From assembly GCA_008933805.1 (NCBI GenBank), contig WBUH01000007.1, positions 124,001-188,000 of the forward strand: DNA of 64,000 bases, in the 5' to 3' direction. This stretch comes from Bacteroidota bacterium (GTDB taxonomy: Bacteria > Bacteroidota > Bacteroidia > UBA8524). The notes under the pieces were generated by a model. The model did not search any database. It saw only the letters and a program-made list of their open reading frames with translations, and was not told where the DNA came from. Both the position numbers and the translations under genes were made by a program. Below are positions 21,401 to 39,530 of this stretch, in pieces. The number at the start of each line of letters is the position of its first letter. The first letter of the stretch is position 1.

Positions 21401-22812
21401 AAACCAACCTTTCATCAGGTAAGTTGTATGTGTTGAAACTAAACAGCGGTTTGGTAAGCAACGAACCTACCAGCACTGTAGGTACTTGGGTTTTGGTACC
21501 TAATACTACTAAAGCCGACCGTAATAATACTAAAGCATTGGGCGCTTCATTAGGCGGTACAATGTTTAACGGTATCGAAGATGTTGAAATAAGCCCTCTT
21601 GACGGTAAAATTTACTTTACTGCAAAAGGTAACAGCCGTACCTACCGCTTTACTGACAACGTTACTACTGTAGCCAACTTTGAAACTTTTGTAGGTGGTA
21701 AAAACTACCGCATCAATACCGGTTCTGAGATTATTTCTGAGCCATGGGGTTCAGGTAATGATAACCTTACTTTTGACGACCGCGGTAACCTTTGGGTATT
21801 GCAAGACGGTAGCCGTAACCACGTTTGGATGATACGTCCAAACCACACACAAGCCAACCCTAAAGTTGAGTTGTTTATGGTTACCCCTATCGGTTCTGAA
21901 CCTACCGGTATGACTTTCTCTCCTGACTTCCGTTACATGTTTATATCAATCCAAAGCCCTGCTAACAACGCGTTGTCTCAAACCGATGTAACCGGAGCTT
22001 CAGTTAAATTTAACGCTAGCAAAACGATTGTAGTTGCCCGTAAAGAAACTTTTGTTTCAGGCAATGCAAACGCAAACTTTACTATCGGCGGTAACACCAG
22101 CCAATGTTTGAAAGGTAACAGCTTCAACCTTACTGAAAGCGTAAGCGGCGGTTCAAACTTATGGAAGTTTGGCAATGGCAAAACTTCTACAGTGGCTAAC
22201 CCAACCCAAAGCTATACAGCAGCCGGTAACTATACCATCTCACTTACTAAAACAACTGCCAACGGTTGCAACGACGTAGTAAGCAAACCTGTAACAGTGC
22301 TTTCAACTCCTGTTGTTCCTTCAATCACCGGACCATCAGTAGCACAACGCGGCAGCACCCAAAACTACAGCGTTGTAAACAATGCAGGTTCTACTTATAA
22401 CTGGACTGTAGTAAACGGTACTCAAGTATCGGGCGGAACTACAAACGCCATCAGTGTAACTTGGGGTAGCCAAGCTATCGGCGACTTGAAAGTTGTTGAA
22501 GTTGGCAGCAGCTCATGCCAAAGCGATACTGCTAAATGGCGTGTAGGCTTGCAAAATGTAGGCATTAATGATATTTCTGCCATCGACGGTTTGCAAGTGT
22601 ACCCTAACCCAGTAAGCACTGAGTTGACAATTAAATCAACCAATGAACTTACTTACGAAGTAGTGGATATTAACGGCCGTGTAGTACTTAGCGGTACTAA
22701 GCCTGCAACTATTGCCCACTTGGTAAATGTTGAAGGTCTTACCAACGGTATGTACATCCTACGCATAAACGAGGCCGGAACCCTTGTTAATTTGCAGTTT
22801 ATAAAAAATTAA
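18406..22812 (+). CDS. Giant T9SS protein: three repeats, PhoX-like domain, PKD, sorting domain
   Basis: A 1468-aa secreted protein. Order: signal peptide (1-25); three tandem repeats of about 190 residues (26-218, 219-407, 408-594), each with DDDQEEWL, SSDLELGTE, AYIQFTVDATSKN and GTGTREVES; and a carbohydrate-binding-like region around 615-790. A PhoX/DUF839-like phosphatase domain (about 800-1200) follows, with NGWLSVNHETN, TPWGTVITSEETM, GIEDVEISPLDGKIYFT and EPTGMTFSPD. Then a PKD domain (about 1235-1290), an Ig-like region and a T9SS sorting domain (about 1394-1468: LQVYPNPVSTELTI). PhoX enzymes are Ca/Fe-dependent phosphatases, so phosphate scavenging is plausible. Activity is inferred, not shown. 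Confidence 0.83.
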   Translation: MKKLYVKVLLISILSLTGITALQAQKTLSVKITNADDDQEEWLAGPNQTKVVGDLDAGSSDLELGTESSGNDPQIVGMRFANITIPKGALITSAYIQFTVDATSKNSDPCVLNITTEDNANPATFNPTVKFDITSRAKSSQSVVWNVSGASWGTTGSATADQRTPNLNGLLQSLIDRNAWASGNSVAFYITGTGTREVESADGNNPGAATLVINYIEPKTLSLKITAADDDQEEWLDGANAGNLDAGSSDLELGTESGGTDPQMVGMRFGNITIPKGAVITNAYIQFTVDATSKNTDPCVLAIKAENNDNPVTFNPITKFDITSRPKSADSVLWTVSGASWGTVGSATADQRTPNLKNLVQALVNRTNWSSNYAMAFYITGTGTREVESSDGNNPGAPTLVIDYIEPTVLSTKITAADDDLEEWLDGANAGNLDAASSDLELGTENAGAEPQMVGMRFTNITVPQGAIIKNAYIQFTVDATSKNTDPCVLTIKTENNDNPVTFNPATKFNITSRAKSADSVQWTVSGASWGTVGAATADQRTPNLKNLVQALVDRAGWANGNAMSFYITGTGTREVESADGNNPGAATLVIEYLGGAGAPVGPKPQIPVTNFPIAKKSNWLYNDSGYVPASNWTAEAYKGDTLWNFGPAVLGYGEPVLGTTIKFGPDANNKYTSAYFRKPFNVANITTLADTLELNVLADDGFVIYINGTEVFRRAMPAGTIGNNTKANKRSDGAYETVYFLKDIPKTLLKNGVNIIAAEVHQYDSLSSDLSFDLELNNRTNIGNAPALACTGSGDTHISCFTSLLPTDQTDTVGIPASHTFQAIFSQGEAYKNQAGNVPGNFDFTGYVPKNGSSTNGWLSVNHETNPGGVSMLDIHFDCNNGKWIVDSSRAVDFTGELVKTERNCSGGVTPWGTVITSEETMTAGDANSDGYEDVGWNVEIDPATKRVKEYGNGKREKLWAVGRVSHENVVVANDSITLYYGEDDGSSNVFKFIADQKTNLSSGKLYVLKLNSGLVSNEPTSTVGTWVLVPNTTKADRNNTKALGASLGGTMFNGIEDVEISPLDGKIYFTAKGNSRTYRFTDNVTTVANFETFVGGKNYRINTGSEIISEPWGSGNDNLTFDDRGNLWVLQDGSRNHVWMIRPNHTQANPKVELFMVTPIGSEPTGMTFSPDFRYMFISIQSPANNALSQTDVTGASVKFNASKTIVVARKETFVSGNANANFTIGGNTSQCLKGNSFNLTESVSGGSNLWKFGNGKTSTVANPTQSYTAAGNYTISLTKTTANGCNDVVSKPVTVLSTPVVPSITGPSVAQRGSTQNYSVVNNAGSTYNWTVVNGTQVSGGTTNAISVTWGSQAIGDLKVVEVGSSSCQSDTAKWRVGLQNVGINDISAIDGLQVYPNPVSTELTIKSTNELTYEVVDINGRVVLSGTKPATIAHLVNVEGLTNGMYILRINEAGTLVNLQFIKN
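18481..20187 (+). repeat. Three tandem ~570-bp coding repeats
   Basis: Units start at about 18481, 19060 and 19627 and encode 193, 189 and 187 residues. Units 2 and 3 are the closest at DNA level, sharing long runs around the AATTTGGATGCC and GATGCTACCAGCAAAAACAC segments. Unit 1 carries a 3-residue insertion (GPNQTKVVGD). This is internal duplication within one gene. Confidence 0.85.
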
Positions 22813-24925: not shown

Positions 24926-25327
24926 TTACAACGCATCATAAGCAGCTTTGATGGCTGCTGCCATTGCGGTTAACTCACTAGCTTCGGGTTTTAGTTTTGG
25001 CTTGGTAAAGTTAATATCACCCACCTCATCCATCGGTACTAAGTGCATGTGTGTATGCGGCACTTCCAGTCCAATCACAGCAACTCCGATACGTTTGCAA
25101 GGCACTGCCGACTTTATTGCTTTTGCTACTTTTTTGGCAAATAACTGCAAGCCTGCTAATGCATCATCTTCCATATCAAAAATGTAATCAACTTCTTGTT
25201 TAGGCACCACCAAAGTATGGCCCATACGCAAAGGGAAAACATCTAAAAAAGCAATGTAATCGCTGGTTTCAGCAATTATATGGCCCGGAATTTCGCGGTT
25301 AATGATTTTGGTGAATATACTTGCCAT
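24926..25327 (-). CDS. HIT family protein (nucleotide hydrolase/transferase)
   Basis: A 133-aa histidine-triad protein. The active site HTHMHLVPM (H-x-H-x-H) is at about residues 98-106, preceded by FLDVFPLRMGHTLVVPK near the N-terminus. Family members hydrolyse dinucleoside polyphosphates or AMP-lysine conjugates. Its start codon overlaps the greA stop by one base (TAATG), so the two are translationally coupled. Confidence 0.92.
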   Translation of the reverse strand: MASIFTKIINREIPGHIIAETSDYIAFLDVFPLRMGHTLVVPKQEVDYIFDMEDDALAGLQLFAKKVAKAIKSAVPCKRIGVAVIGLEVPHTHMHLVPMDEVGDINFTKPKLKPEASELTAMAAAIKAAYDAL

Positions 25328-25800
25328 TAGCGTCCGATTTCAAGTACTTCAAACTCCAATATGCCTGCGGGGGCTTGTATCTGTACCGATTCGCCTACCG
25401 TTTTGCCAATAAGGCCTGCACCGATAGGAGATTTAACAGATATCTTACCGCTTTTAAGATCGGCTTCTTTTTCAGTTACTAAAGTATAGGTGATTTTAGC
25501 GTTGTTCTTAAGGTTTTTAAGAGTCACCTTACTCAAAATCATCACTTTTGAATTGTCAATCAAACTCTCATCCAACAAGCGTGCATTAGCCAGCATGGTT
25601 TCCATCTCGGCAATTTTGGCCTCAAGTAATCCTTGAGCCTCTTTGGCTGCATCGTATTCTGCATTTTCCGAAAGGTCGCCCTTGTCCCTAGCCTCCGCAA
25701 TTTGTCTTGAAATTGAGGGTCGCTCAACGGTTTTCATGTGATGGATTTCAGCCTTTAGCTTGTCTAATCCTTCTTTAGTAAAATAATGTACCTCTGCCAT
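25327..25800 (-). CDS. greA: Transcription elongation factor GreA
   Basis: Rescues backtracked RNA polymerase by stimulating transcript cleavage. ATG 25800 gives MAEVHYFTKEGLDKLKAEI, the usual beginning, and 157 aa. The open frame to 25860 would translate through a terminator hairpin and is rejected. The coiled-coil tip carries the catalytic acidic pair in RDKGDLSENAEYDAAKEAQ. The C-terminal FKBP-like domain has SPIGAGLIGKTVGE and FEVLEI. Operon with the HIT gene. Confidence 0.95.
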   Translation of the reverse strand: MAEVHYFTKEGLDKLKAEIHHMKTVERPSISRQIAEARDKGDLSENAEYDAAKEAQGLLEAKIAEMETMLANARLLDESLIDNSKVMILSKVTLKNLKNNAKITYTLVTEKEADLKSGKISVKSPIGAGLIGKTVGESVQIQAPAGILEFEVLEIGR

Positions 25801-25822
25801 AATCGCTCGCTTTAAACAAAAA

Positions 25823-25855
25823 GAAAAGTTCTGAGTCCGAAACTCAGAACTTTCC
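25823..25855 (-). terminator. Intrinsic terminator after the PorV/PorQ-like gene
   Basis: Perfect 12-bp stem: AAAGTTCTGAGT (25825-25836) and ACTCAGAACTTT (25842-25853), 5-nt loop. On the minus strand it is followed by TCTTTTTGTTT. It separates the TonB receptor operon from greA. Confidence 0.8.
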
Positions 25856-25904
25856 AGCAAAAATAATTTATGTTATTGAATATTAAAAAAACAAATACAT
25901 GTTA

Positions 25905-27014
25905 TCAGTCATTACCCAAAGCAAGGCGTAACCCGAATGAGTGAATACCTTGGAAAGGGTTTGTGCTACGGTATGAATAATCGATACCAATTGTGTTGCT
26001 TGAGAAAGGTACTTCAAGTGTAACACCACCGGCAAAACCGGTAAGTGCGTTAGTACGTTCTTCAGCATTAAACAAACCATCTTCGTAGTTAAAACCGGCG
26101 CGGAACATGATAAACTCTTTGTAAGAATATTCAAGACCAACACCTAATTGGTTTTTAGAAAATGTGTTTGAAGTAAAGTTAGTAGCCGCTGTTAACCTGT
26201 GGAAGTAGCTGTTGCTGTCTTTATCCAACCTGAAATCGTATGCAAAACCAATGTTTAGCAACGAAGGTAGGTTGAATTTAGACGCACGGTTTTCTAAAGT
26301 GCTTGAGTAAGAAGCGTCGTTTATAGAACCTGTGATAGATAAACCATCACCACGGAAAACCATGTCAGGACCTACGTTACGCAAAGCAATACCAAAACGC
26401 ATATCCTCGCGGTAGCGACCTTTAGAGAACTTTGGGTTACCAATGGTACGTTTTACTGAGGTGGTAGCGTATTGGATACCTGCATCAATAGCAAAACCTT
26501 GTGCTTTTACGTTCACCACCTCTTGCGAAATAGCCCTAAGTAACAAACCACCTGTAATAGATGATGAGAACCTGTGAGCGTATCCCAAACCGATGTTGAT
26601 GAACTGTGGCCTGAAGGTACCTAAACCACCTTCGGGTTGGCTAACGGTAGTGATGGGTATATCACCAAAACCTATTGAGGTAATGGTTAATGCCAATACT
26701 CCGCTTTCGCTCACCCTTTGGCCCAAACCAATGTTGTTAATGTTAATTCCCGAAGGCACTAACCAATTGGTGCGGGCTGCTATCACTTCAGTAGAAGATA
26801 AGTGGGCCAAACCCGCTACGTTAAGTGTGGTTGACTCAAGCCCCCTGATAGAGGCTGAGTTTACACCGCCCCATCCTGAGCTGCGGGCCCAACTGTTTAC
26901 TTGCAGTTCGGTTGCCCCGGCTTGTCCGGCACGGTCAGGGTTACCACCCCTTGCATTTATAACACAGGCAGTGATACCTGCTACTATCAACGTATGCTTT
27001 ATAAGTTTTTTCAT
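25905..27014 (-). CDS. PorV/PorQ-family outer-membrane protein
   Basis: A 369-aa FadL-like beta-barrel. Signal-like N-terminus, then the family start GQAGATELQVNSWARSSGWGGVNSASIRGLE with a following LNVAGLAHL (only parts quoted), alternating amphipathic strands and a terminal SFGLRLALGND. PorV is the T9SS shuttle that delivers cargo to the PorU sortase; PorQ is a related component. Here there is no porU neighbour. The gene is last in an operon behind a large secreted protein and a TonB receptor, so it is more likely a dedicated accessory member than core PorV. Gap to the upstream gene is 21 nt. Confidence 0.8.
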   Translation of the reverse strand: MKKLIKHTLIVAGITACVINARGGNPDRAGQAGATELQVNSWARSSGWGGVNSASIRGLESTTLNVAGLAHLSSTEVIAARTNWLVPSGININNIGLGQRVSESGVLALTITSIGFGDIPITTVSQPEGGLGTFRPQFINIGLGYAHRFSSSITGGLLLRAISQEVVNVKAQGFAIDAGIQYATTSVKRTIGNPKFSKGRYREDMRFGIALRNVGPDMVFRGDGLSITGSINDASYSSTLENRASKFNLPSLLNIGFAYDFRLDKDSNSYFHRLTAATNFTSNTFSKNQLGVGLEYSYKEFIMFRAGFNYEDGLFNAEERTNALTGFAGGVTLEVPFSSNTIGIDYSYRSTNPFQGIHSFGLRLALGND

Positions 27015-27035
27015 GTTAAATTTCCATTAAAGTGA

Positions 27036-30000
27036 TTAGAAGGTATCCAAATCTATCTGCCTCATAATACCAAACCATTTCAAGATTTTAGTACCAACGC
27101 CTTCGGCATCTACGTGTATAATATACATACCTGATGCGATGGGCACGTTAGCTTGGTTTTTCAAATCCCAATCAACTGAGGTTGACTCATCATCTTTCTT
27201 AATAGTACGAACAAGGGTACCGCTGAAAGTGAAGATTTTAATGGTTGTTTTTTGTGGAAGGTTGATAAATTTAACCCTGTTATCCAACCTGCTACCTTCA
27301 TACTGTGAGTATGCGTAGTAAGGGTTAGGAACAACACCAATCAAATCAAGAGCACTGCGCTTTGCATTGTCAGAGTTTGGATTGGCAACAATATCGTTGG
27401 TGTTGAAGGTAAACAAAGGTTGGTTTTTGTTTACGCTATCTTCAGCAGCGTTATAGTTTTGGTAAGGCTTAGAAGCCCTGATACGTATCCTTACTTCATA
27501 AGGAGGAATACCACTCTTAAGGTTGAAACCTGTTTCAGCAAGAGCAGGCATTACATACATTGCTTGTGAAAACACACGCCTGCGCTCAAGAACACTGTTT
27601 GATGACAGCATCGGCTGGTACATCGCTCCTTCATCATAAATAGGTCCGTTGAAGTTAATTGCCCTGTAGCTACCCATAATGTAGAAGTAGTGTTTACCAC
27701 CCAATACAATACCTTGTGATGATGATAGGTTACCGGTTGGGTTCCATATCATATCGGTACCGTTTTCATTTGGAAGGTTAGAGTCTTCACCAAAGATAAT
27801 GTTCAACCTTTCACCTGTTTCAAGGTTAATAGCATAACCGGGGAACCAGCTACGGCCTTGGTCGCCATTGGTCATTGGTTTAAAGTCTTTATCCAACGAT
27901 GGGCTACGACGTAATTGGAATTTCTCTGCATTACCCAAAGAAAGCAATGGGTCTTCAGACATTTCAACTACAGCACAACGAGTCCATTTTGATTTATCAG
28001 GAGTTATTACAATATCCACACTAGCCAACTCGCTGTATGGGTTATCGGTAAGTGGTTGTTGTGAGTATGCAGGGCCATAAGTGGTACGACCAGAAGCGTT
28101 TGCCGGAGCACGGGCAGCCAAAGCATACGGAGCTATACGACCATCCAACATTTTCTCCCAACGTTCGCGGGGGTCAAGTGGGTTACCTGCGTTAGCAAAG
28201 TCATGGGTATAAACATCCGAATAGCTGGGTGAACCGTTACGACCAGCCCTAATCCAGTTGAACCAAGATAAAGTTGGGCTAGTAGCAAATGCATCGTTAT
28301 CCTGCAAAGCAGTCAACCAAGGTTTATCGTCGTTAGCATATTCCATTGAGGCGCTCAAGAAACCATTACTGTTATCGGTAATGTTATCAGGATCGCCGGG
28401 GCCTACTACTTGTTTAATAGTTAGAGATATACCCCAAGCTGGAATTACTTGTTCGTTATCAATATGTATTACTGTATCAGAAAGTACTGATTGACCAGTG
28501 GTAGTATTGGTTAAAATCCAACGGGTACGGTATGGGTTGGTAATAGAGTCTTGGAACCTGAAAGCAGTGCTGTTTAGGTGCAATGAATCTATAAACTTCA
28601 ATTCATAATCGCCTTTTTGGATTTTGAATGGGTCGATAACTTTAATGTTAAACGGACCTGCTCCGCCTTTGTATTTAATACGTGGAACGTGTGCGCTTGA
28701 GCTATTTAATATTGCAGCTTCTGACTCTTCGTCTAGTTCAAGGTTGATACCACCGTTACCACGGCCGGCTATACGTGTGATAGCTGGACCATCACCATAG
28801 TTAGCACCAATTTCAGTACCAGAACCACGGGGTTCGGCTTTGTGAGGAATACCTCTCAAGCCACCGGCTACTAGCCTACCGCCCAAGAACTGCAAATCAT
28901 CGTTAGGATCGTTTGTTAAGCTAGCGTATGATAATACTAGGTAGTGGTAAGTTTTAAAGTTTACCAAACGTTTATCACCGGCTGCAAAAAGGTCATCAGT
29001 AAGTTTAAAAGTATGCTGAACGCCTTTGTTGTTACCGTTTACTTTCTCAACAGGAACAGTTACACCTACAACGTCATCAAATTCTTGGTTGATAATTTGT
29101 GCGGTTTCGTCTTTGATATCGCATTGGAACACCAAACGTGCTTTATCAATGTTGTTCAAGTCAGCAGATGTTACGTTAGCATCTTTCAACTGGTACACCA
29201 TGTACCCTTGGAATTTGTAGCGCAACTCTTGACCATTACCACCAACAACTGATTCACTGTACTTTTCAACACGTGGAGTGTTTGTACCGGTGAAGGTTAC
29301 AATAAGTTCACGATCAAGTTCAGTAATTTGAACTATTGGTGCATCAGGACCATCAATAATGTCAAAGTTGTTGTTAAACAATTTTTGAGCTTTATCACTT
29401 GCCAAACGCAATAGCGAAAGAGAGCCTGTAGCACCACCGGTGGTAGCACGTGCCCAAACCACACCCACTGTTACATAGTTAACAGCACCGGGTTCAAGTG
29501 TAAATGGACCAGAAGATTGGATGTAACGACGGTCTCCAGGAGTGTTACCTGCTGATTTTTCGTGCCATCCGCCTGATTTTGCAGGATCGTCAGGGAACAT
29601 AAAGTCAGCACGTGAGCCTGTGTTATAACCGTTACCACCATAAGTTACAGGTGAGTTATCTTTCCATATACCACGCAAGTAACCGTAGTAATGTTCAGCA
29701 AGGGTTGGGTTACCGATTACTGAAAAGTCGTTGTTATAGTAAACAAATTTAGCTAAGCCTAGTTCTTGTCCGCTTTCGTTACGAGGACCTTCGAAAAAGT
29801 CAGTACCTACTGAAGGAGGGTTTGTACCATATCCTAAGATACCTTCATCATCATCATCACCGTTGTAGCAGAAACCTAAGTCGCGAGAAGTATCACAACC
29901 TACATAGTCATCAGAATAGTTACCCAAATCGGCATCTACCCATTGGCCAAAATAACAATCTCTAACAGCGTCGCGTGAGCGGTTGGTAATTTTGGTTTTG

Positions 30001-30818
30001 TAGAAAGTCATGTTGTTAATCTCGTCGTTGGTTTTAAAACCAAAGGCGGTAGTAACCAATTCCAAACCGATAGGAATACCTGATGTTTCAGAGTGAATAT
30101 TACCTTTATCGTTATAGATAAAAGTAAGCATCTGGTCAGGTTGATCTTCAGGTTTGTTTTTATCAGCAGGGCGGGTTGGGTCTAGTACGGGATATTCAGT
30201 ACCGCTGGCTACATCATAAAATGCATCACCGTTGGCATCGAAAAATGGAGCCAGAACCCTTGATTCTTTAAAGTTAATATCACCGCTACCGGGGTAGTTA
30301 CGGATATCGTCAGTAGGTGTAGCACCACTGTCGATAAATGCCATAATATCGTTACGGTTGATTTTAAAGATTTTGTCGTAGAATTTACACCTTCCGGCTT
30401 CGGTAGAGGCAGAACCGCCTGTATCCAAAGGACCTGGGTAATAATCACTACCACTTTGACGGTAGGTCATAGCAGCAACCTTTAGGTTACCACCCGGATC
30501 AAGACCACCAATCCATATAGCACCCGCAAACAGCGAGTTTTTGCGAATGGTATTAGCATCGCTTACTTTAGGTATTTCGTATTTGGCCACACTATTCAAA
30601 TCCCACCACATATCACCACCGTTCAAAATACGGGCGCGTACGTTGTTGATATCTAAATCGGCCTGAAATGTAGCAGGCTCGCATGCTGCAGCTTTACGCT
30701 GCAGTTTCTGCCCTCCTACTGAAGTAGGAAGCCCGATAACTTCTTTTGCCATTAGATTGCTGCCTGCAAATAGCATAACAGCCACACTAACTAATGCCTT
30801 TATATTAATAATTCTCAT
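27036..30818 (-). CDS. Large secreted protein with FlgD/T9SS-like C-terminal domain
   Basis: A 1260-aa protein with signal peptide (SVAVMLFAGSNLMAK) and no domain that I can name across most of its length. Early conserved-looking blocks are DMWWDLNSVAKYEIPK and FAGAIWIGGLDPGGNLK. The C-terminal ~95 residues form a FlgD-like beta-sandwich: GVVPNPYYAYSQYEG, KIFTFSGTLVRTI, VDWDLKNQANVPIASGMYIIHV, ending IMRQIDLDTF. This resembles T9SS sorting domains but has VVPNPY instead of YPNP. It lies between a TonB receptor (19 nt) and the PorV/PorQ-like gene (21 nt), so the three probably form one surface complex. Confidence 0.78.
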   Translation of the reverse strand: MRIINIKALVSVAVMLFAGSNLMAKEVIGLPTSVGGQKLQRKAAACEPATFQADLDINNVRARILNGGDMWWDLNSVAKYEIPKVSDANTIRKNSLFAGAIWIGGLDPGGNLKVAAMTYRQSGSDYYPGPLDTGGSASTEAGRCKFYDKIFKINRNDIMAFIDSGATPTDDIRNYPGSGDINFKESRVLAPFFDANGDAFYDVASGTEYPVLDPTRPADKNKPEDQPDQMLTFIYNDKGNIHSETSGIPIGLELVTTAFGFKTNDEINNMTFYKTKITNRSRDAVRDCYFGQWVDADLGNYSDDYVGCDTSRDLGFCYNGDDDDEGILGYGTNPPSVGTDFFEGPRNESGQELGLAKFVYYNNDFSVIGNPTLAEHYYGYLRGIWKDNSPVTYGGNGYNTGSRADFMFPDDPAKSGGWHEKSAGNTPGDRRYIQSSGPFTLEPGAVNYVTVGVVWARATTGGATGSLSLLRLASDKAQKLFNNNFDIIDGPDAPIVQITELDRELIVTFTGTNTPRVEKYSESVVGGNGQELRYKFQGYMVYQLKDANVTSADLNNIDKARLVFQCDIKDETAQIINQEFDDVVGVTVPVEKVNGNNKGVQHTFKLTDDLFAAGDKRLVNFKTYHYLVLSYASLTNDPNDDLQFLGGRLVAGGLRGIPHKAEPRGSGTEIGANYGDGPAITRIAGRGNGGINLELDEESEAAILNSSSAHVPRIKYKGGAGPFNIKVIDPFKIQKGDYELKFIDSLHLNSTAFRFQDSITNPYRTRWILTNTTTGQSVLSDTVIHIDNEQVIPAWGISLTIKQVVGPGDPDNITDNSNGFLSASMEYANDDKPWLTALQDNDAFATSPTLSWFNWIRAGRNGSPSYSDVYTHDFANAGNPLDPRERWEKMLDGRIAPYALAARAPANASGRTTYGPAYSQQPLTDNPYSELASVDIVITPDKSKWTRCAVVEMSEDPLLSLGNAEKFQLRRSPSLDKDFKPMTNGDQGRSWFPGYAINLETGERLNIIFGEDSNLPNENGTDMIWNPTGNLSSSQGIVLGGKHYFYIMGSYRAINFNGPIYDEGAMYQPMLSSNSVLERRRVFSQAMYVMPALAETGFNLKSGIPPYEVRIRIRASKPYQNYNAAEDSVNKNQPLFTFNTNDIVANPNSDNAKRSALDLIGVVPNPYYAYSQYEGSRLDNRVKFINLPQKTTIKIFTFSGTLVRTIKKDDESTSVDWDLKNQANVPIASGMYIIHVDAEGVGTKILKWFGIMRQIDLDTF

Positions 30819-30837
30819 AACCGTAATTTTTTTTTAA

Positions 30838-33800
30838 TTAAAACTGCAACGATACGCTCAGCCTGATACGACGTGGCAAACCATAATAGCCGGGGTTAGC
30901 AAGGGCTGTGTTGTACAAATCAACAAATGATTGTGCATCAACTGCGTTCCTTATCGACTCACGACCAAGGTTTGAACTCAACCAACCATCATCAGTTGCT
31001 GAACCGGTGTATGGGTGTACAGCCCTAATGTTATCTATGTTTAGGAAGTTTTGTATCCAGAACATAAACTGCATTTGTCCCATTTTAGGCATACCTGATT
31101 TGTTACGACCCAACTTCACATTTACACGTTTGTAAATGTTAATGTCGTTTTGCAACTGCCATGGAAGGCGTGAACCAAAAGGAGTACCTTTAATTGGGCT
31201 ACGAACTACTACGCCTGATTGTGTGTTTGGAGTAGCAATTTGGTTAGCTGTGTATGGTAGACCAGAGAAGGCGTTAAAGATTACGCTGATACCTGCATTT
31301 TCAAGTACTTTGGTTTTCTTTTTACCCCAAACCGGGCCGTTGTACCTATCGCCACCGGCAAATTCATAGTACAAGTTAACTTTGATGTTGTGCCTTACGT
31401 CGATGTTAAGTGGGAACAAAGTACGTAAGTTGGGCAAACCAACTGAAATAAGTGATGCTTGAGAACCTGTGCTTGAACCTGTACCATCAGCAAATTGCAA
31501 GGTATAGTTAGCGTCCATGTTAAGGTTACCCAAATCCCTCATTTCATATTCAAGCCTGAAGCTCTTAATGGTTGAAAAGTCGATGTTACCAAATGAAGTA
31601 TAGTCAATAGGATAAGCATAGTTATAACGGAACAACTGGATAAGGTTACGTTGTTCGCGGTATGAAGCAACTATACTCAACGCTGATTGATGCTTGCTGG
31701 TATTATCTGTTAACCTTTGTTTGAAACCAAGCTCATAGTCAGTAGTAGTTTGGGCTTTCAAGTTAGGGTTGTTAAGCGTTGTAGTGGGGTTAAAACGCAA
31801 GTAGTAGTAATCATCAACAGTAGTAAATACGTTTGATGGCCTTTGTGCAATAACGTCGTAGCTGGCAAAGAACCTAGATGCTTGGTTAATTGGGAAGTCA
31901 AACCAAATACGTGGCAACACGTTGATGGTTGGTTTGAAATCGGTGAACGAAGCAGCAGTTACGTTTTCGTTATTAGGGTCAACCAAGTAAGGTTGGATTT
32001 TACCGGTACGAGAGTTGTTAGCAAGTACTGAAGGGTCAGCAATTTTGATACCTTCTTTGTTGTACCATTCCAAACCATCACGGTAACCCAAAATACGGGT
32101 TGGGTTTTCAATGTTATCTACATACACTGCATAATCGTTACCTACAGAAGATGGGTGAGTAACGGCAGTACCTCCTACTTCTTTCACTTCACCTGCTGAG
32201 CGAATTGGATACAATGAATATGGATCTTTAAGTACAGGTAGGTTGTTATCAAACCTTTCAACCCTCAAACCTAAACGGAAGATAAGGTCTTTAAAGGCGA
32301 ATTTATCTTGAACAAACACTGCAGAGTAAATAGGCATATAAGCACCAATTTCACGCCTGCTTGGGTCTAAGAAATCAGCAATACCGCGATTTCCTTTTAG
32401 TTTGTTACCCATGTAATCGTAACCGAAATAGCTTACTAAACGGTTACCGTTGTTCAACAACTCATCAGCGCTAAAATCGCTTAGTTTAAAGTCGTTAGGG
32501 TCAAATGCGTTAATATCAACGTAAGAGTTTTCAGTAATAGGGTTGCCGTAGTTATCCATTACACCACGCTCCATTAACCTCTTACGAAAGTTTTTATCAA
32601 AAGTTGATTGGTTCTCTGATTGTTTGTAGTTGTAACGAACTGTATCTCGGAAAATACCATTTTGGTCAACTGACAAAATTGGGTTATCAGTATCCAACAC
32701 AACACCGTTGTTCATCAACTGCCACATCAAAGTCCACAAACCGTTTGATGATACGCTCCAAGAACGTGATACACGTTGCTCGTAGTAAACACCAAATTTA
32801 ATGTCATGGCCTTTAATGCTCACTTCACCTGAAGCGTTCAAGCTGTACTGCTCGTTTTGGCTTTTGCCATAACTAGAGGTTAGCGTACCTACGTTGTTCC
32901 ACATCAAAGAGTAAATACCTATTGGGTTTTGTCCGTTAACCAAACCGGCGTTGCTACTACGCACATCAAATATTGAGTTGATAGCGTCTTGACCCAATAG
33001 GTCATAATAAGCAGAGGTGTAGTTAGCCCTGATAGGGTTACGGGTATTGCTACGGTCAAAAGTGAACAAGGTATCAATAGGCCTGTTACCTGTTTGACGG
33101 TAGTAGTTTTTGATGTAATAGGTTTGACCGTTGTATTGAACCGTATCGGGGTTTGAGTTTTCGTTACCTCCGCCTACAAATTCAAATGCGGGGCGGCTGT
33201 ATGTTTTGAAACGGCCGATGTAGCCATAATCAAAGATGTTGTCTTTGTGAACTGCATCCTGGTTGATGTTCCAGTTTGATTGGTATTCTAAACGAATGGT
33301 GTAATAAGCACTTTCAACTAAACGCTTAGCGTTTTTGTCTTTGTTATCTTCTGATGTGATAAGCCTTTGAGTGAAGCTCAAGTAGCTTAACAAACTGTGC
33401 TGGATACTTTGTGCGTTATTATTATAGTTGAACAGGTTGTTTTGGAAGTTGTAGCCTATTGTGTTTGAATAGTCATACTTAGCACCCAAAATCACTTGTA
33501 TTTTATCGGTTGGTGAAAAGTTTAAGTTACCCAAGGCTGTAACCACATATTGTGGCACGTTAGGAGTAGCTTGTACTTTTTCCAAGTCTTTATTGGTGAT
33601 AAACTCAGCCGAAGGCACAAAACCTTGACCGATTGGTGCCGAACGGATAGGGCTGGCTTCCAATTCTTTTAGTTTATCTTCTTTCACACGCCAAACACCG
33701 ATAGCTGATGGCGAACGGTCGGCAGTATAGTTAAAGTTACCTGCAAACAAATATCCCAACACTGTACGAGCAGTTGAACGACCTTTATTTTTAGTATAAA

Positions 33801-34566
33801 TAGGACCGGTCATTGCCATCTCAAACAGGTTGAAGTGGTATTTATCAAAAAGACTTGAAGTGATACCTTCAAACGATGCGTTAAAGGTTGATGATGGCGG
33901 GGGTGTGGTTACGCTGATAGCACCCCCAACAAAGTCGCCATATTCGGCAGATACACCACCGGTAATAACGTTTTGCTGGCCTATACCGCGCTGAGGAAGG
34001 TTGATGTTACCAATTACCCTTACACCATCAATATAATAAGCAGTACCTGATGAACGAGCACCACGGAAACTTGGTGTACCACCATCAATAGATATGGTAC
34101 CTGCAACCGTGTTACTAAGGCTGTTTACACCACGAGTGGGTATTTTGCCTACGTTATCAATGGTACGACCCAATTCATCCCCTTTTACAATGGGAGGGCG
34201 GGCTTTCTCAGTGATAACAACTTCACCTACGGAAATTACCGATTCGCCAATCTGCACATCCTGGAATGTGATCTGATCGGGACGAATGGCAAGACCTTCG
34301 ATTTTCTTGCTTTGGTAACCGGTGTACTTAATAACGATGTCATAAGTTCCGGGTTTAAGACCTTTAATACGGTACACACCATCAATGTCGGTGGCGGCAC
34401 CCGTAATTTTCTGGCCTCCCAAATACGCTTCTACAGTGGCACCTATCAGCGGCTCTTTGGTATCCTCGTCAAAAACGGTACCCCTGATTTCTCCCAACTG
34501 TGATTGGGCCATTGCTGTAACCGAAGCAATTACACCCAATAAAAACAGGTAGATTTTTCTTCTCAT
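30838..34566 (-). CDS. TonB-dependent receptor with carboxypeptidase-like domain (paralogue 1)
   Basis: A 1242-aa outer-membrane protein. Signal peptide (1-20), carboxypeptidase-regulatory-like domain (about 24-110: GEIRGTVFDEDTKEPLIGAT, GVYRIKGLKPGTYDIVIKY), plug (about 125-230: AYYIDGVRVIGN, GGVSAEYGDFVGGAISVTTP) and a large barrel ending in Phe (RIRLSVSLQF). Active transporter or surface adhesin powered by TonB. There is no SusD partner, so this is not a classical glycan-uptake pair. It heads an apparent operon with the 1260-aa secreted protein and the PorV/PorQ-like barrel. A GCCCC/GGGGGC hairpin lies in its leader (34605-34622). Confidence 0.88.
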   Translation of the reverse strand: MRRKIYLFLLGVIASVTAMAQSQLGEIRGTVFDEDTKEPLIGATVEAYLGGQKITGAATDIDGVYRIKGLKPGTYDIVIKYTGYQSKKIEGLAIRPDQITFQDVQIGESVISVGEVVITEKARPPIVKGDELGRTIDNVGKIPTRGVNSLSNTVAGTISIDGGTPSFRGARSSGTAYYIDGVRVIGNINLPQRGIGQQNVITGGVSAEYGDFVGGAISVTTPPPSSTFNASFEGITSSLFDKYHFNLFEMAMTGPIYTKNKGRSTARTVLGYLFAGNFNYTADRSPSAIGVWRVKEDKLKELEASPIRSAPIGQGFVPSAEFITNKDLEKVQATPNVPQYVVTALGNLNFSPTDKIQVILGAKYDYSNTIGYNFQNNLFNYNNNAQSIQHSLLSYLSFTQRLITSEDNKDKNAKRLVESAYYTIRLEYQSNWNINQDAVHKDNIFDYGYIGRFKTYSRPAFEFVGGGNENSNPDTVQYNGQTYYIKNYYRQTGNRPIDTLFTFDRSNTRNPIRANYTSAYYDLLGQDAINSIFDVRSSNAGLVNGQNPIGIYSLMWNNVGTLTSSYGKSQNEQYSLNASGEVSIKGHDIKFGVYYEQRVSRSWSVSSNGLWTLMWQLMNNGVVLDTDNPILSVDQNGIFRDTVRYNYKQSENQSTFDKNFRKRLMERGVMDNYGNPITENSYVDINAFDPNDFKLSDFSADELLNNGNRLVSYFGYDYMGNKLKGNRGIADFLDPSRREIGAYMPIYSAVFVQDKFAFKDLIFRLGLRVERFDNNLPVLKDPYSLYPIRSAGEVKEVGGTAVTHPSSVGNDYAVYVDNIENPTRILGYRDGLEWYNKEGIKIADPSVLANNSRTGKIQPYLVDPNNENVTAASFTDFKPTINVLPRIWFDFPINQASRFFASYDVIAQRPSNVFTTVDDYYYLRFNPTTTLNNPNLKAQTTTDYELGFKQRLTDNTSKHQSALSIVASYREQRNLIQLFRYNYAYPIDYTSFGNIDFSTIKSFRLEYEMRDLGNLNMDANYTLQFADGTGSSTGSQASLISVGLPNLRTLFPLNIDVRHNIKVNLYYEFAGGDRYNGPVWGKKKTKVLENAGISVIFNAFSGLPYTANQIATPNTQSGVVVRSPIKGTPFGSRLPWQLQNDINIYKRVNVKLGRNKSGMPKMGQMQFMFWIQNFLNIDNIRAVHPYTGSATDDGWLSSNLGRESIRNAVDAQSFVDLYNTALANPGYYGLPRRIRLSVSLQF

Positions 34567-34761: not shown

Positions 34762-34792
34762 ATCAGGGGGTTGTAACGCCCCCTGATTTTTT
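34762..34792 (+). terminator. Terminator-like hairpin reading on the plus strand
   Basis: ATCAGGGGG (34762-34770), loop TTGTAACG, CCCCCTGAT (34779-34787) and then TTTTT on the plus strand. Both neighbouring genes are on the minus strand, where the stem is followed by A rather than T. So as an intrinsic terminator it would stop rightward, antisense transcription. The 264-base gap around it holds no ORF. Confidence 0.5.
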
Positions 34793-34830: not shown

Positions 34831-37800
34831 TCAAAAGGTTAACGATACCCCTAACCTTATCCTGCGGGGCATAGTATAGTAACCGGGGTTTTGTAGCGCG
34901 GTGTTGTACAAATCAACAAATGATTGTGCATTCACTGCGCTTTCTACTGCCTTACGGCCTTGTTCTGAGCTTAGCCACCCGTCGGTTTCTGCTGAGCCGG
35001 TGTAAGGATGTATGGCACGTATGTTTTTTAGGTTGATAAAATTATTTACTGACAGCGTAAATCTAAACTCTCCCATTTTTTTGCTGCCGTCTTTTGAGCG
35101 ACCCAAAACTGTAGGAATGGTTTTAAAGATACTTAAGTCGTTTTGTAGTTGCCAAGGCAAACGGGCGCCAAAGGGTGTACCTTTAATAGGTGAACGATTG
35201 GCGGCACCGCTTTGTGCGTTGGCCGTAGGTTGTTGGTTAACGGTGTAGGGTAACCCTGAGAACGCATTCAGGTTCATCACTACGCCCATGTTTTCAAATA
35301 CCTTAACTCCCTTAATTTTAAGTCCTGTGTACTTATCTCCACTACGGGTGTAGTAGCTGACGTTGAACTTGATGTTGTTACGAACGTCAAAACTAAGAGG
35401 GAAAAGTGTGCGTAGGTTTGGTTGCCCCACTGCAACCAATGCCTGCTGAGAGCCTGCTGATGACCCTGTGCCATCGGCAAACTGTAACGTGTAGGATGCG
35501 TCCATTTCAATCCGCTCGTTTTTGCGCATAATGTATTGAGCGGAGAAACTTTTGATAGTTGAAAAATCGATGTTAGCAAAAGAGGTATAGCTTACCGGGT
35601 AAGCGTAGTTGTATTTATATAATTGTATAAGGTTGCGTTGCTCGCGATAGGCAGCGGTTAGTGCCAATGCCGAGTTTACTGACAACTTAACCCTAAAACC
35701 TAACTCGTAGTTGGTACTGCGTTGAGGTTTCAAATCGGGGTTACCTATTATATCGGTTGAGTTAAAGGGTAAGAAATAGTATTGTGCTATGGTAGCAAAG
35801 TTGTTGGTAGGTCGTTGTGCCAACACATCATAGCTGGCAAAAAAACGAGCTACATCCGTAACTGCAAACTCACAATACAAGCGGGGCAATAATTGCACCT
35901 GTGGCTTGTAATCGGTAAAGGCGTTAGCCTCTACCCTATTTTGTGTAGCATTGCTAAGGTAAGGCTGTATCGTGCTTCCTTTTGATTGCTCGGCAATAGT
36001 TGCAGGGTCATTTATTTGCAACCCTTGCGCATTGTACCAAGTATTACCGCTGCGGTAGCCTGTAATGCGTGTGGGATTGCGGGCATCATCAACATATACT
36101 GTATAATCATTGCCAATTGATTCAGGGTGCTTCACATCTGTACCGCCAATAGTTTTCACCTCGGCTGCTGTTTTAGCATCAAACAACAAAAATGGGTCTT
36201 TAAGCACCGGCATATTGTTGTCAAACCTTTCGGCACGCAAGCCAACACGCATGGTAAAACCTTTAAACTGTATCCTGTCTTGCACAAATGCAGCAGCATA
36301 AGTAGGCATATAAGCACCCACGGGGCGATTTAAAATATCATTAGTAAAAGCATTGATACTTCGTGAGCCATTGGTTTTGTTACCCAAGTAATCATACCCG
36401 TAATAACTTACATACCCGTTACCGTTGTTTAGCAACTCATCAGCACTAAACATCGAAAGTTTAAAATCGGCAGGATTGTATGAGTTGATATCGATAAACG
36501 AGTTTTCAGTAATGGGTTTGCCATAATTATCTACGGCACCTTGTGCTATCAGTGCTGCTCTGATGCGCTTATCAAAGGTTGACTGTGATGCTGATTGACG
36601 ATAGCCGTATTTAACGGTGTCTCTAAACACCCCGTTTTGGTCTAACACCAGTTGGGGATTTTCAGTATCTAACACCAAGCCGTTGTTGGCCAATTGACCC
36701 ATCAATGTCCAAAGGCCGTTGGCATCAGCACTCCAAGCACGTTGAAAACGTTGCTCGTAATACATACCGAAACGTAACTCGTGGTTTTTGGTGCTTATTT
36801 GCCCTGTGGCATTAATACCTACTTGCTCACTTTGGCTTTTACCGTAACCGGTTACTCCCAACCCCACGTTGTTCCACATGTTTGAATATATACCTATCGG
36901 GTTTTGACCGTTTACCAACCCTGCTCCGCTACTACGTATAGAGGTTAGTGAGTTTATATTCTCTTGCCCAAGTAAATCATAATACAAGCTGGTGTAGTTG
37001 GCACGCAATGGGTTGTGTGTTTCGTTGCGGTCAAATGTTACCAATGTATCAATGGGGCGGTTCCCTGTTTGACGGTAGTAATTCTTAACGTAGTACTTCT
37101 GTCCGTTTACCTCAAATGTGTCCGGCTTCTGGTTTTCTGTATGCGATACCAGTTCATACGCAGGGGTGCTGTATGTTTTAAAACGGCCTATGTGTCCATA
37201 ATCAAACAGATTAGTACCGTGCTCAGGGTCTTGTGTTGTTGACCACGCTCCCTGATAATCTAAGCGAACATTGTAAAAGGCATTGGTTATCCAACCATTT
37301 TCTTTTGTTTTTAGTATGTGGTTAAAGTTTACATAGGTAAGCAGGTTGTGGTTAATGGTTTGTGAGTTGTTGCCGGGGTTAAACAGGTTGTTAGCAAAAT
37401 TGTAGTTGATAAAATTGCCGTAATCGTACTTGGCACCAAATAGTACCTGAATGTTCTCATTGGGTACATAATTCAACTCGCCCAACAGTGAGGTGGTTTG
37501 CGAAGGAGTGTTAGGATTGGCACTTATTTTTTCCAAATCTTTTTGGGTGATAAACTCTGCCGATGGTACAAAGCCGTTTCCTTTAGGTGATGAGCGTAAA
37601 GGGGTTTCTTCCAATTCTTTCAGTTTGTCTTCTTTCAAACGCCAAACACCTACCGCCGATGGTGACCTATCGGCTTGGTATTGGTAATTGCCCGATAGTA
37701 AATACCCCAACTTAACTTTAGCACTGTCGCGACCTTTGTTTTCTACAATCAAAGGCCCCATAAAAAAGGCTTCTGCATAATTGTTATGGTATTTATCAAA

Positions 37801-38505
37801 CAAGCTGGAACTAATGGCTTCTACTGAGCTTCTTCTTAATAACCCCGGACGAGGGGTATTAACGCTGATAGCACCGCCCAAAAAATCTCCGTACTCTGCT
37901 GAAAAGCCACCCAACATTACGGATGCGTTTCCAATGGCTGCAGTTGGGAATCCTGAAAGGTTTGAACCGTTTATCCAAACACCGTTCCATAGAATACGGC
38001 TTGAATTAAAACGAGCTCCGTTCATAGACATTGCCCCGCCATCTTGAGCAAATACACCGGGAGCTGTATTTGCTATGCTTGATAAACTAGACCTTATAGG
38101 AGATGCTATTAATCCATCCCGTCCGCAACCTATACATTTATCATTATCTACAATTTTTTTAACATGAGTTACGACTGTTTCTGTAACTTCTACTAACCCT
38201 ACTGATATTGTAACTTCTGTTACATTATCAGCATCTACTGCCACACCTGCCAAAGTTTTATCTTGTGCCGCATAGTTTACGCGCACGTTGTATTTGCCTG
38301 CATTCAGGGGTTTAAAAGTTGCGATACCTTTTTCGTTGGTGCTTTGGGTCTTAATAACCGCTCCTTCTTGGTACAGGGTTACATAAGCAAACTCCACTAA
38401 TTCCTCTCCATCGGTTACAGTAACCCTTAACTCCCCGGTGGTAGTTTGTGCCTGTAGTGCTACAGGAAGGGCAAAGCAAAGCCATAGGTAAATTATCCTT
38501 CTCAT
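34831..38505 (-). CDS. TonB-dependent receptor with carboxypeptidase-like domain (paralogue 2)
   Basis: A 1224-aa paralogue of the receptor at 30838 with the same domain order: signal peptide (1-20), regulatory-like domain (about 23-105: GELRVTVTDGEELVEFAYVT), plug and barrel ending RIRLGVSLTF. From GGFSAEYGDFLGGAISVNTP onward it tracks paralogue 1 closely, including ADRSPSAVGVWRLKEDKLKE and AQSFVDLYNTAL. The segment before it differs strongly and contains DKCIGCGRDG (Cys124, Cys127), absent in paralogue 1. Probably a tandem duplicate with altered plug specificity or partner. It is separated from paralogue 1 by 264 nt. Confidence 0.87.
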   Translation of the reverse strand: MRRIIYLWLCFALPVALQAQTTTGELRVTVTDGEELVEFAYVTLYQEGAVIKTQSTNEKGIATFKPLNAGKYNVRVNYAAQDKTLAGVAVDADNVTEVTISVGLVEVTETVVTHVKKIVDNDKCIGCGRDGLIASPIRSSLSSIANTAPGVFAQDGGAMSMNGARFNSSRILWNGVWINGSNLSGFPTAAIGNASVMLGGFSAEYGDFLGGAISVNTPRPGLLRRSSVEAISSSLFDKYHNNYAEAFFMGPLIVENKGRDSAKVKLGYLLSGNYQYQADRSPSAVGVWRLKEDKLKELEETPLRSSPKGNGFVPSAEFITQKDLEKISANPNTPSQTTSLLGELNYVPNENIQVLFGAKYDYGNFINYNFANNLFNPGNNSQTINHNLLTYVNFNHILKTKENGWITNAFYNVRLDYQGAWSTTQDPEHGTNLFDYGHIGRFKTYSTPAYELVSHTENQKPDTFEVNGQKYYVKNYYRQTGNRPIDTLVTFDRNETHNPLRANYTSLYYDLLGQENINSLTSIRSSGAGLVNGQNPIGIYSNMWNNVGLGVTGYGKSQSEQVGINATGQISTKNHELRFGMYYEQRFQRAWSADANGLWTLMGQLANNGLVLDTENPQLVLDQNGVFRDTVKYGYRQSASQSTFDKRIRAALIAQGAVDNYGKPITENSFIDINSYNPADFKLSMFSADELLNNGNGYVSYYGYDYLGNKTNGSRSINAFTNDILNRPVGAYMPTYAAAFVQDRIQFKGFTMRVGLRAERFDNNMPVLKDPFLLFDAKTAAEVKTIGGTDVKHPESIGNDYTVYVDDARNPTRITGYRSGNTWYNAQGLQINDPATIAEQSKGSTIQPYLSNATQNRVEANAFTDYKPQVQLLPRLYCEFAVTDVARFFASYDVLAQRPTNNFATIAQYYFLPFNSTDIIGNPDLKPQRSTNYELGFRVKLSVNSALALTAAYREQRNLIQLYKYNYAYPVSYTSFANIDFSTIKSFSAQYIMRKNERIEMDASYTLQFADGTGSSAGSQQALVAVGQPNLRTLFPLSFDVRNNIKFNVSYYTRSGDKYTGLKIKGVKVFENMGVVMNLNAFSGLPYTVNQQPTANAQSGAANRSPIKGTPFGARLPWQLQNDLSIFKTIPTVLGRSKDGSKKMGEFRFTLSVNNFINLKNIRAIHPYTGSAETDGWLSSEQGRKAVESAVNAQSFVDLYNTALQNPGYYTMPRRIRLGVSLTF

Positions 38506-38591: not shown

Positions 38592-39530
38592 TTAGCCCAG
38601 TTGCTTTATTTTTTCAACTAAGCTTACGGAAATCTTGTAATAGGACTCATGCGTCCAGCCACCTGTGTGACTTGTTATTAAAACGTTAGGGTAGGCCAGC
38701 AGGTTGGAAAGTTGCTGACGTTCGTCGAAAGAATATTCGGGCAGGTTTTCGTTTTCCAATACATCCAGCGCACAACCGCGCAGTTTGCCGCTTTGCAGGG
38801 CTGATAGTACAGCGGGGGTATGCATTATTTTTCCCCTTGATAGGTTAAGTAAGTAAAAACTCTTTTTAAAGCTATTTATATAATCGGAAGTAATAAGGTG
38901 ATGTGTTTCACTGGTAAGTGGTAAATGTACGCTTAAAACGTCCGCACGGGCATAAAGCGCCTCCATGCTGCACTCTTCTACCAACTCGTTGCCGTAATCG
39001 GTTTTGTATTTATCGTAGGCGATTATTTTGCAACCAAACCCTGAAAGCTTTTTTGCGAAGGCACTTCCCGTATGACCATATCCGACAATTCCCACTGTCA
39101 TATAGGATAGCTCAAACCCGCGGTTGCCCTCGCGTTCCCACTCAAAGTTATTTACTTCTAAATATGATTTGTGAATGTTTGCCAATAAGCTCAACAACAT
39201 ACCTACGGCCTGTTCGCCTACGGCATCACAGTTGGCTTCGGGAGTGTTAAAACAAGTGATGCCCGCTTGTTCACAGTATTCTAAATCAATAATTTCAAGA
39301 CCGGACCCTGCCCTACCGATAAATTTAAGTTTGTGCGCTTCTTGCAGAACCTCACGGTCGATTTTTGTTTTTGAGCGTACCACCAGCCCTTCGTAATTAC
39401 CTATGCAGTTGATAATTTCAGCCCGTGATATATAAGGGAGATAATCAATCGCGTATCCCAACGCAGGCAAATGCTCGTTGAGGTAAGGATGTACATCGTC
39501 AATTATTAATACCGTGCCTTTAGGTTGCAT
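38592..39530 (-). CDS. D-isomer-specific 2-hydroxyacid dehydrogenase (SerA-like, no ACT domain)
   Basis: A 312-aa NAD-dependent dehydrogenase. NAD-binding GIVGYGHTGSAFAKKL, then the catalytic triad: Arg in LLNLSRGKIMHT, Glu in ALDVLENENLP, His in VLITSHTGGWT. The substrate domain shows FIGRAGSGLEIID and FNTPEANCDAVGEQAVG, close to the phosphoglycerate dehydrogenase signature. The length fits a short SerA-type enzyme without the regulatory ACT domain. It could be phosphoglycerate dehydrogenase (serine synthesis) or a related 2-ketoacid reductase. It sits 3 nt behind murI and is probably co-transcribed. Confidence 0.85.
   Translation of the reverse strand: MQPKGTVLIIDDVHPYLNEHLPALGYAIDYLPYISRAEIINCIGNYEGLVVRSKTKIDREVLQEAHKLKFIGRAGSGLEIIDLEYCEQAGITCFNTPEANCDAVGEQAVGMLLSLLANIHKSYLEVNNFEWEREGNRGFELSYMTVGIVGYGHTGSAFAKKLSGFGCKIIAYDKYKTDYGNELVEECSMEALYARADVLSVHLPLTSETHHLITSDYINSFKKSFYLLNLSRGKIMHTPAVLSALQSGKLRGCALDVLENENLPEYSFDERQQLSNLLAYPNVLITSHTGGWTHESYYKISVSLVEKIKQLG

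Follow-up and report, generated by a model that had tools for sequence, protein, structure and literature searches.

Cargo proteins of the T9SS have been described with two kinds of barrel partner: type A cargo relies on a single common shuttle, PorV, and type B cargo comes with PorP/SprF barrels of its own (PMC12618676). In type B pairs such as SprB/SprF and Fjoh_3952/Fjoh_3951, the cargo's own barrel gene lies directly after the cargo gene, and some cargos are orphans (PMC12618676). The C-terminal domains (CTDs) of PorU and PorZ, which belong to the PorU-PorV and PorZ-PorQ attachment complex, have been reported to remain uncleaved and to be held by PorV and PorQ (PMC10202324). Glycan uptake by SusC/SusD (RagA/RagB) offers another parallel, with a TonB-dependent receptor (TBDT) carrying a CarboxypepD_reg domain that is co-encoded with a large surface protein, and with paralogues near CAZymes and regulators. 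In BamG-BamH of the Bacteroidota BAM, a barrel of the FadL/PorV fold acts as the platform of a surface protein (PMC12578637). Finally, the alginate locus of Rhodothermus marinus carries a set of genes, tonB-hypA-hypB, that has been left unexplained (PMC9530828).

Here we describe an operon of the same three gene types in a member of the Bacteroidota (assembly GCA_008933805.1). It lies in a window of 64,000 nucleotides, the whole stretch of DNA that was analysed (contig WBUH01000007.1, positions 124,001 to 188,000), and coordinates without a contig or locus name are positions in this window. We consider it fairly probable that the operon specifies one outer-membrane complex, in which a T9SS cargo is held uncleaved by a dedicated PorV-type barrel and works together with TBDT import. 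The locus had originally been put forward as a candidate for an undescribed system. We found no description of a module of PorV-like barrel, cargo and TBDT in the open-access literature, but the gene types themselves were already on record from the alginate locus of R. marinus (PMC9530828).

Structure of the operon

Three minus-strand genes encode, in this order, a TBDT, a 1260-aa exported cargo and a barrel of the PorV/PorQ family, with gaps of 19 nt (30819-30837) between TBDT and cargo and 21 nt (27015-27035) between cargo and barrel. The features of the locus and its surroundings are the following:

38592..39530, minus strand: SerA-like D-isomer 2-hydroxyacid dehydrogenase whose place upstream of the triad is conserved, outside the proposed mechanism
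34762..34787, plus strand: terminator-like stem between an upstream TBDT paralogue and the operon, with A-rich sequence after it on the minus strand
30838..34566, minus strand: TBDT, 1242 aa, first gene of the operon; CarboxypepD_reg N-terminal domain, plug and barrel
27036..30818, minus strand: exported cargo, 1260 aa; conserved body outside any Pfam family, type-A-like C-terminal domain
29373..30674, minus strand: N-terminal domain of the cargo, residues about 49-482
27036..27353, minus strand: C-terminal sorting/anchoring domain of the cargo (CTD-X), VVPNPY...KWFGIMRQIDLDTF
25905..27014, minus strand: 369-aa outer-membrane barrel of the PorV/PorQ family, the proposed shuttle or anchor dedicated to the cargo
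25823..25855, minus strand: intrinsic-terminator-like stem of 15 pairs with a T tail, 3' of the barrel gene, the last of the operon
25327..25860, minus strand: GreA, conserved downstream neighbour on a separate transcript, its true start probably the ATG at about 25800

The three genes form one operon. This had been predicted from the two spacings and a terminator, and is borne out by the open reading frames and the 15-pair stem; terminator-like sites number 17 against 14.1 in shuffled sequence, so that a single site of this kind is weak evidence.

Directly upstream lies a second TBDT gene (34831-38505, minus strand), 57% identical to that of the triad, which is set behind the terminator-like stem and has neither a cargo nor a barrel of its own. 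Near its plug, the product has a cysteine-containing stretch (NDKCIGCGRDG) not seen in the other aligned TBDTs. Elsewhere in the window (18406-22812, plus strand), a type A T9SS protein of 1468 aa contains a PhoX alkaline-phosphatase domain and, by eye, three similar N-terminal stretches of about 200 aa.

Identity of the barrel

The barrel scores 126 bits against the PorV/PorQ family model NF033709, above the cut-off of 90, in line with the original prediction of a PorV/PorQ relative paired with one large secreted protein, a pairing that turned out to be general. Against the equivalog models it reaches 56 bits for PorV (NF033710, cut-off 250), 53.5 bits for PorQ (NF033711, cut-off 220) and 28 bits for PorV2 (cut-off 325). 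The triad barrels also group apart from core PorV in a tree where the group of the window orthologue is supported (0.89) and some deeper nodes are weak. Curated cut-offs and tree grouping together rule out that the barrel is PorV, PorQ or PorV2. The best PDB match of its AF2 model (pLDDT 83.5) is PorV in 8gl6, the translocon with a bound RemA CTD (E 2e-15); FadL structures rank after PorV, the best of them with an E-value five orders of magnitude worse.

The cargo and its C-terminal domain

An apparent Sec signal peptide was recognised by eye at the start of the cargo. The profile scan found no Pfam family above cut-off in this protein, and only the C-terminal ~100 residues, which end in IDLDTF, resemble anything. 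This C-terminus scores 22.8 bits against the type A model TIGR04183 (cut-off 23), 17.7 bits against FlgD_ig (cut-off 27) and 29.9 bits against the C-terminus of the PorZ model, and 21 of 27 members of the cargo family match TIGR04183 at E<=0.01. PorZ itself aside, the cargo CTD is the best match in the host genome to the C-terminal part of the PorZ model; conversely, the cargo profile reaches PorU in this genome and does not reach the ~150 ordinary type A CTDs. Judged by these profile scores, the nearest named C-terminal domains of CTD-X are those of PorZ and PorU. A non-canonical sorting domain had been anticipated. The domain is type-A-like, with a TIGR04183 score just short of the cut-off and with PorZ and PorU nearer, and might be close enough to type A for core PorV to carry it.

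The AF2 model of cargo residues 61-1260 has a mean pLDDT of 83.3. A structure search with it returned PorZ at the top, followed by GH94, GH116 and related sugar-active enzymes; the latter matches are weak (E 1e-4 to 1e-3, r.m.s.d. 7-9 A, the matched region of the cargo not being reported) and give a weak hint of a carbohydrate-type beta domain. Among solved structures, the sequence search gave a marginal PorZ match only. The N-terminal domain of the cargo also occurs in two separate type A proteins of ~515 aa in the host genome, which have no adjacent barrel.

Comparison with described systems

The NCBIfam scan of cargo and barrel gave no match to TIGR04131 or PorP/SprF, which rules out that the two belong to type B/PorP-SprF. 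The triad resembles such pairs in that the barrel gene comes directly downstream of the cargo gene (73/79 and 38/39 loci, see below) and that some cargos are orphans. In contrast to them, the barrel of the triad is of the PorV family, the CTD is type-A-like and not of the TIGR04131 kind, and the operon includes a TBDT. The PorU-PorV/PorZ-PorQ complex shares with the triad the nearest CTDs and the location of PorU beside PorV. Yet the triad cargo is neither the sortase nor PorZ, the barrel lies below the equivalog cut-offs, and the genome has a complete PorU/V/Q/Z set as well as the triad. Unlike SusC/SusD, the triad has no SusD, and its surface partner possesses a T9SS CTD and a PorV-family barrel: the window TBDT does not match TIGR04056 (SusC/RagA type; a distant relative scores 84 versus 368), and the profile scan found in the cargo no SusD match, an apparent Sec signal peptide being there instead. 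BamH, for its part, is a lipoprotein and a part of BAM, with neither CTD nor TBDT.

Among the closest known loci are those of R. marinus, where the tonB-hypA-hypB genes (PMC9530828) and a triad on plasmid pRMAR01 (NC_013502.1) match the window operon in both gene types and gene order. They are annotated as TonB-dependent receptor, hypothetical or type A sorting protein, and PorV/PorQ family protein, and differ from the window triad as members of paralogous, metabolism-linked groups. In its working, the triad is probably akin to type B/PorP-SprF pairs and to SusC/SusD, yet the features compared above place it in neither.

The T9SS of the host genome

All core parts of the T9SS that were looked for (SprA, PorU, PorV, PorQ, PorZ) are found in the host genome, together with about 150 type A cargos. 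Core PorV (478 bits against NF033710) adjoins PorU on contig C17, as had been expected for a PorV serving the whole system, and PorQ is on contig C19. The module had further been said to look self-contained; this is too strong, since export would need the core T9SS translocon, which the host has, although a co-inherited unit with a dedicated barrel is supported by the comparisons below.

Two proteins of the host carry CTD-X, the window cargo and an orphan on contig C5, and two PorV-family barrels exist besides PorV and PorQ, the window barrel and one on contig C11. The orphan has a CTD-X-like C-terminus (G000:C5:67933-68268; L096, L137), and the gene after the unlinked barrel (G000:C11:143220-144119; L090) encodes a 409-aa protein without any NCBIfam match. 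A conserved six-gene operon that contains a TBDT (L162-L164) unites relatives of the C5 and C11 genes in other classes, a kinship supported in the tree for C11 and resting on sequence resemblance by eye for C5.

Conservation across the Bacteroidota

Relatives were sought in ~85,000 species genomes, the genome searches being within one phylum, and the best 80 cargo relatives were taken. Among these, a TBDT gene is next upstream of the cargo in 71 of the 78 loci with a flank and a barrel gene next downstream in 73 of 79; GreA then follows in 64/69 and the SerA-like gene precedes in 43/55. Several of the exceptions to the triad order involve the end of a contig, a fragmented frame or a tandem duplicate. 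At least 146 of 392 genomes spread over the phylum, and at least 94 of 179 genera, have a match to the cargo profile; by kinship labels, the matches listed are infrequent in the class to which the window belongs and frequent in other classes. In 39 further loci, 32 of them from other classes, TBDT, cargo and barrel follow in the same order on one strand in 38, and the 39th runs off its contig; both the 80 and the 39 loci were picked by cargo similarity. The gene-neighbourhood survey proposed with the original prediction thus finds the three genes together in other genomes (71/78, 73/79 and 38/39 loci), and this phylum-wide gene order rules out a purely local arrangement or a recent accident.

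The SerA-like gene again stands beside the TBDT in at least 9 of the 32 loci from other classes, and the SerA-linked copy of the triad therefore looks ancestral, not recently spread.

Several loci deviate from or extend the triad. The cargo paralogues L047, L075, L086 and L088 have neither a neighbouring barrel nor a TBDT, and L047 shares its genome with the complete triad of L072. A GWxTD-domain protein is encoded directly 3' of the triad barrel at L098 (12217-13752, plus strand), and proteins that start similarly by eye follow the triad barrel in L115 and L125.

Adjacent barrels and the C-terminal domain of the cargo

Nine genomes of other classes contain 103 PorV-family barrels above cut-off and 80 matches to the C-terminal cargo profile, CTD-X. 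A CTD-X protein is encoded directly upstream and on the same strand of 58 of these barrels, against 0.10 expected, and none lies directly downstream or on the opposite strand; these counts cover related loci and are not phylogenetically independent. Nine unpaired barrels are the top scorer of their respective genomes and look like core PorV, with which most of them group in the tree. Seven more have a CTD-X gene about 7 kb upstream, and the three that were read represent one conserved six-gene operon. As a control, we considered ordinary type A proteins of three genomes: among the 155 listed of 183 matches, only two lie directly upstream of a barrel, one being itself a CTD-X protein and the other probably PorU beside PorV.

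A natural domain swap separates the two ends of the cargo. The N-terminal domain was found in 46 proteins, 21 with CTD-X and 25 (two of them in the host genome) without it. A barrel adjoins 13 of the 21, six of the other eight being in tandem arrays with one barrel, and 0 of the 25 (Fisher p 2e-6, the relatives not being independent). Barrel adjacency tracks CTD-X, not the N-terminal domain or ordinary type A cargo.

In two tandem arrays (G302:C1:1739979-1755262 and 2537311-2549910) several CTD-X cargos accompany a single barrel, as if several cargos shared one anchor.

These counts bear on an alternative in which an ordinary type A cargo travels on core PorV and the barrel works independently, as a channel of the FadL type that admits hydrophobic or other nutrients, making the triad a two-barrel uptake locus with a secreted binding protein. 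PorV and FadL have a common fold and FadL structures come next after PorV in the matches, the CTD misses the TIGR04183 cut-off by little (22.8 bits against 23), and the host possesses core PorV as well as some 150 cargos of type A. We nonetheless regard this alternative as unlikely, given that the adjacent barrel goes with the C-terminal domain (13/21 versus 0/25), that the ordinary type A proteins listed for the three genomes do without adjacent barrels, and that the PorV match is better than the best FadL match by the five orders of magnitude mentioned above. Retention of the cargo on its own PorV-type barrel is the reading that we prefer.

Co-inheritance of the three partners

Trees built from CTD, barrel, TBDT and cargo body are correlated across 56 triads (rho 0.76-0.87). 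In 22 paralogous triads from three genomes with six to eight each, rho amounts to 0.80 for CTD and barrel and 0.90 for barrel and TBDT, and the correlation vanishes when partners are shuffled within a genome (null 0.0 +/- 0.14, 0/2000 shuffles). This shows that TBDT, cargo and barrel are inherited as a functional unit, contact not being implied by co-inheritance alone. A TBDT is present in 56 of the 59 barrel-cargo pairs, and an import complex of cargo and TBDT is therefore likely.

Gene neighbourhoods and possible ligands

Genes for GH3, GH94, LacI and RpiR lie beside paralogous triads, which suggests a SusCD-like role for the triads, and the tonB-hypA-hypB triad of the R. marinus alginate locus (PMC9530828) likewise speaks for a nutrient role. 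Amidase or peptidoglycan-recognition genes stand next to some of the paralogous triads. A possible further triad in the R. marinus xylan locus (Rmar_1070-1072) is recognised by annotation only (PMC6987092). Plasmid searches gave a single match, the triad on pRMAR01 of R. marinus DSM 4252 (L185, NC_013502.1 11170-18312); CRISPR-Cas gene sets lie on either side of it, and genes for peptidoglycan recognition and serine hydrolases are its neighbours.

The window triad has housekeeping neighbours (SerA-like, MurI-like, GreA, BamA-like) and not CAZymes, and its ligand may for this reason not be a glycan. The orthologues keep a fixed context of SerA-like gene, triad, greA and HIT, and in the closest relatives MurI-like and BamA-like genes are found upstream of the triad. 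Such surroundings, devoid of CAZymes, would also suit a structural or housekeeping surface assembly (envelope-biogenesis or S-layer-like) that is held by the barrel and sensed or energised by the TBDT, with no nutrient import, and the amidase and peptidoglycan-recognition genes beside some paralogues agree with it. The sugar genes beside other paralogous triads argue against it, as do the TBDT in 56 of 59 pairs and its co-inheritance with the barrel, the tightest of all, so that we think such an assembly quite unlikely and keep to an import complex built around a barrel-held cargo.

Proposed mechanism

We propose that the cargo, made with a signal peptide, would fold in the periplasm and leave through the ordinary T9SS translocon. 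There, CTD-X would be taken up by the cargo's own PorV-type barrel instead of being passed by core PorV to PorU, and would stay bound on this barrel, uncleaved, like PorU on PorV and PorZ on PorQ. The cargo would then stand on the cell surface above the barrel and beside the co-encoded TBDT, where it may bind or present a ligand, probably a glycan or other polymer fragment, for import by the TBDT with TonB energy. The binding of cargo to barrel, the lack of cleavage, the import role and the ligand are what we infer from the comparisons above. The triad would thus correspond to a SusC/SusD system assembled by the T9SS, the place of the lipoprotein being taken by a T9SS cargo that sits on a PorV-like barrel. 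That the TBDT is merely a conserved neighbour of a functional cargo-barrel pair seems very improbable: the six-gene variant does place a CTD-X protein several genes away from a TBDT-barrel pair, and in the host genome the C5 cargo lies apart from the C11 barrel, but barrel and TBDT correlate at rho 0.90 compared with 0.80 for CTD and barrel, and nearly every pair includes a TBDT.

A possible cargo class of the Bacteroidota

The import complex of barrel-held cargo and TBDT may represent a further class of T9SS cargo, ancestral in Bacteroidota, whose PorU/PorZ-related CTDs would stay uncleaved on dedicated barrels and, together with TBDTs, would serve a lipoprotein-free SusCD-like uptake; in our judgement the case for and against this wider claim is evenly balanced. 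The same holds, with opinion equally divided, for its corollary that one conserved SerA-linked copy would coexist with paralogues that expanded outside Bacteroidia and may handle many substrates.

The 58 pairs in nine genomes indicate that PorV-family barrels are also private partners of cargo, beyond the shared-shuttle model (PMC12618676). The question of why PorU and PorZ retain their CTDs becomes testable in other protein pairs, and R. marinus DSM 4252 is a named organism with such triads. If our reading is true, the triads tie the T9SS to TonB-dependent import, and would give a function to many proteins now annotated as 'hypothetical', 'T9SS type A sorting domain' or 'PorV/PorQ family protein'.
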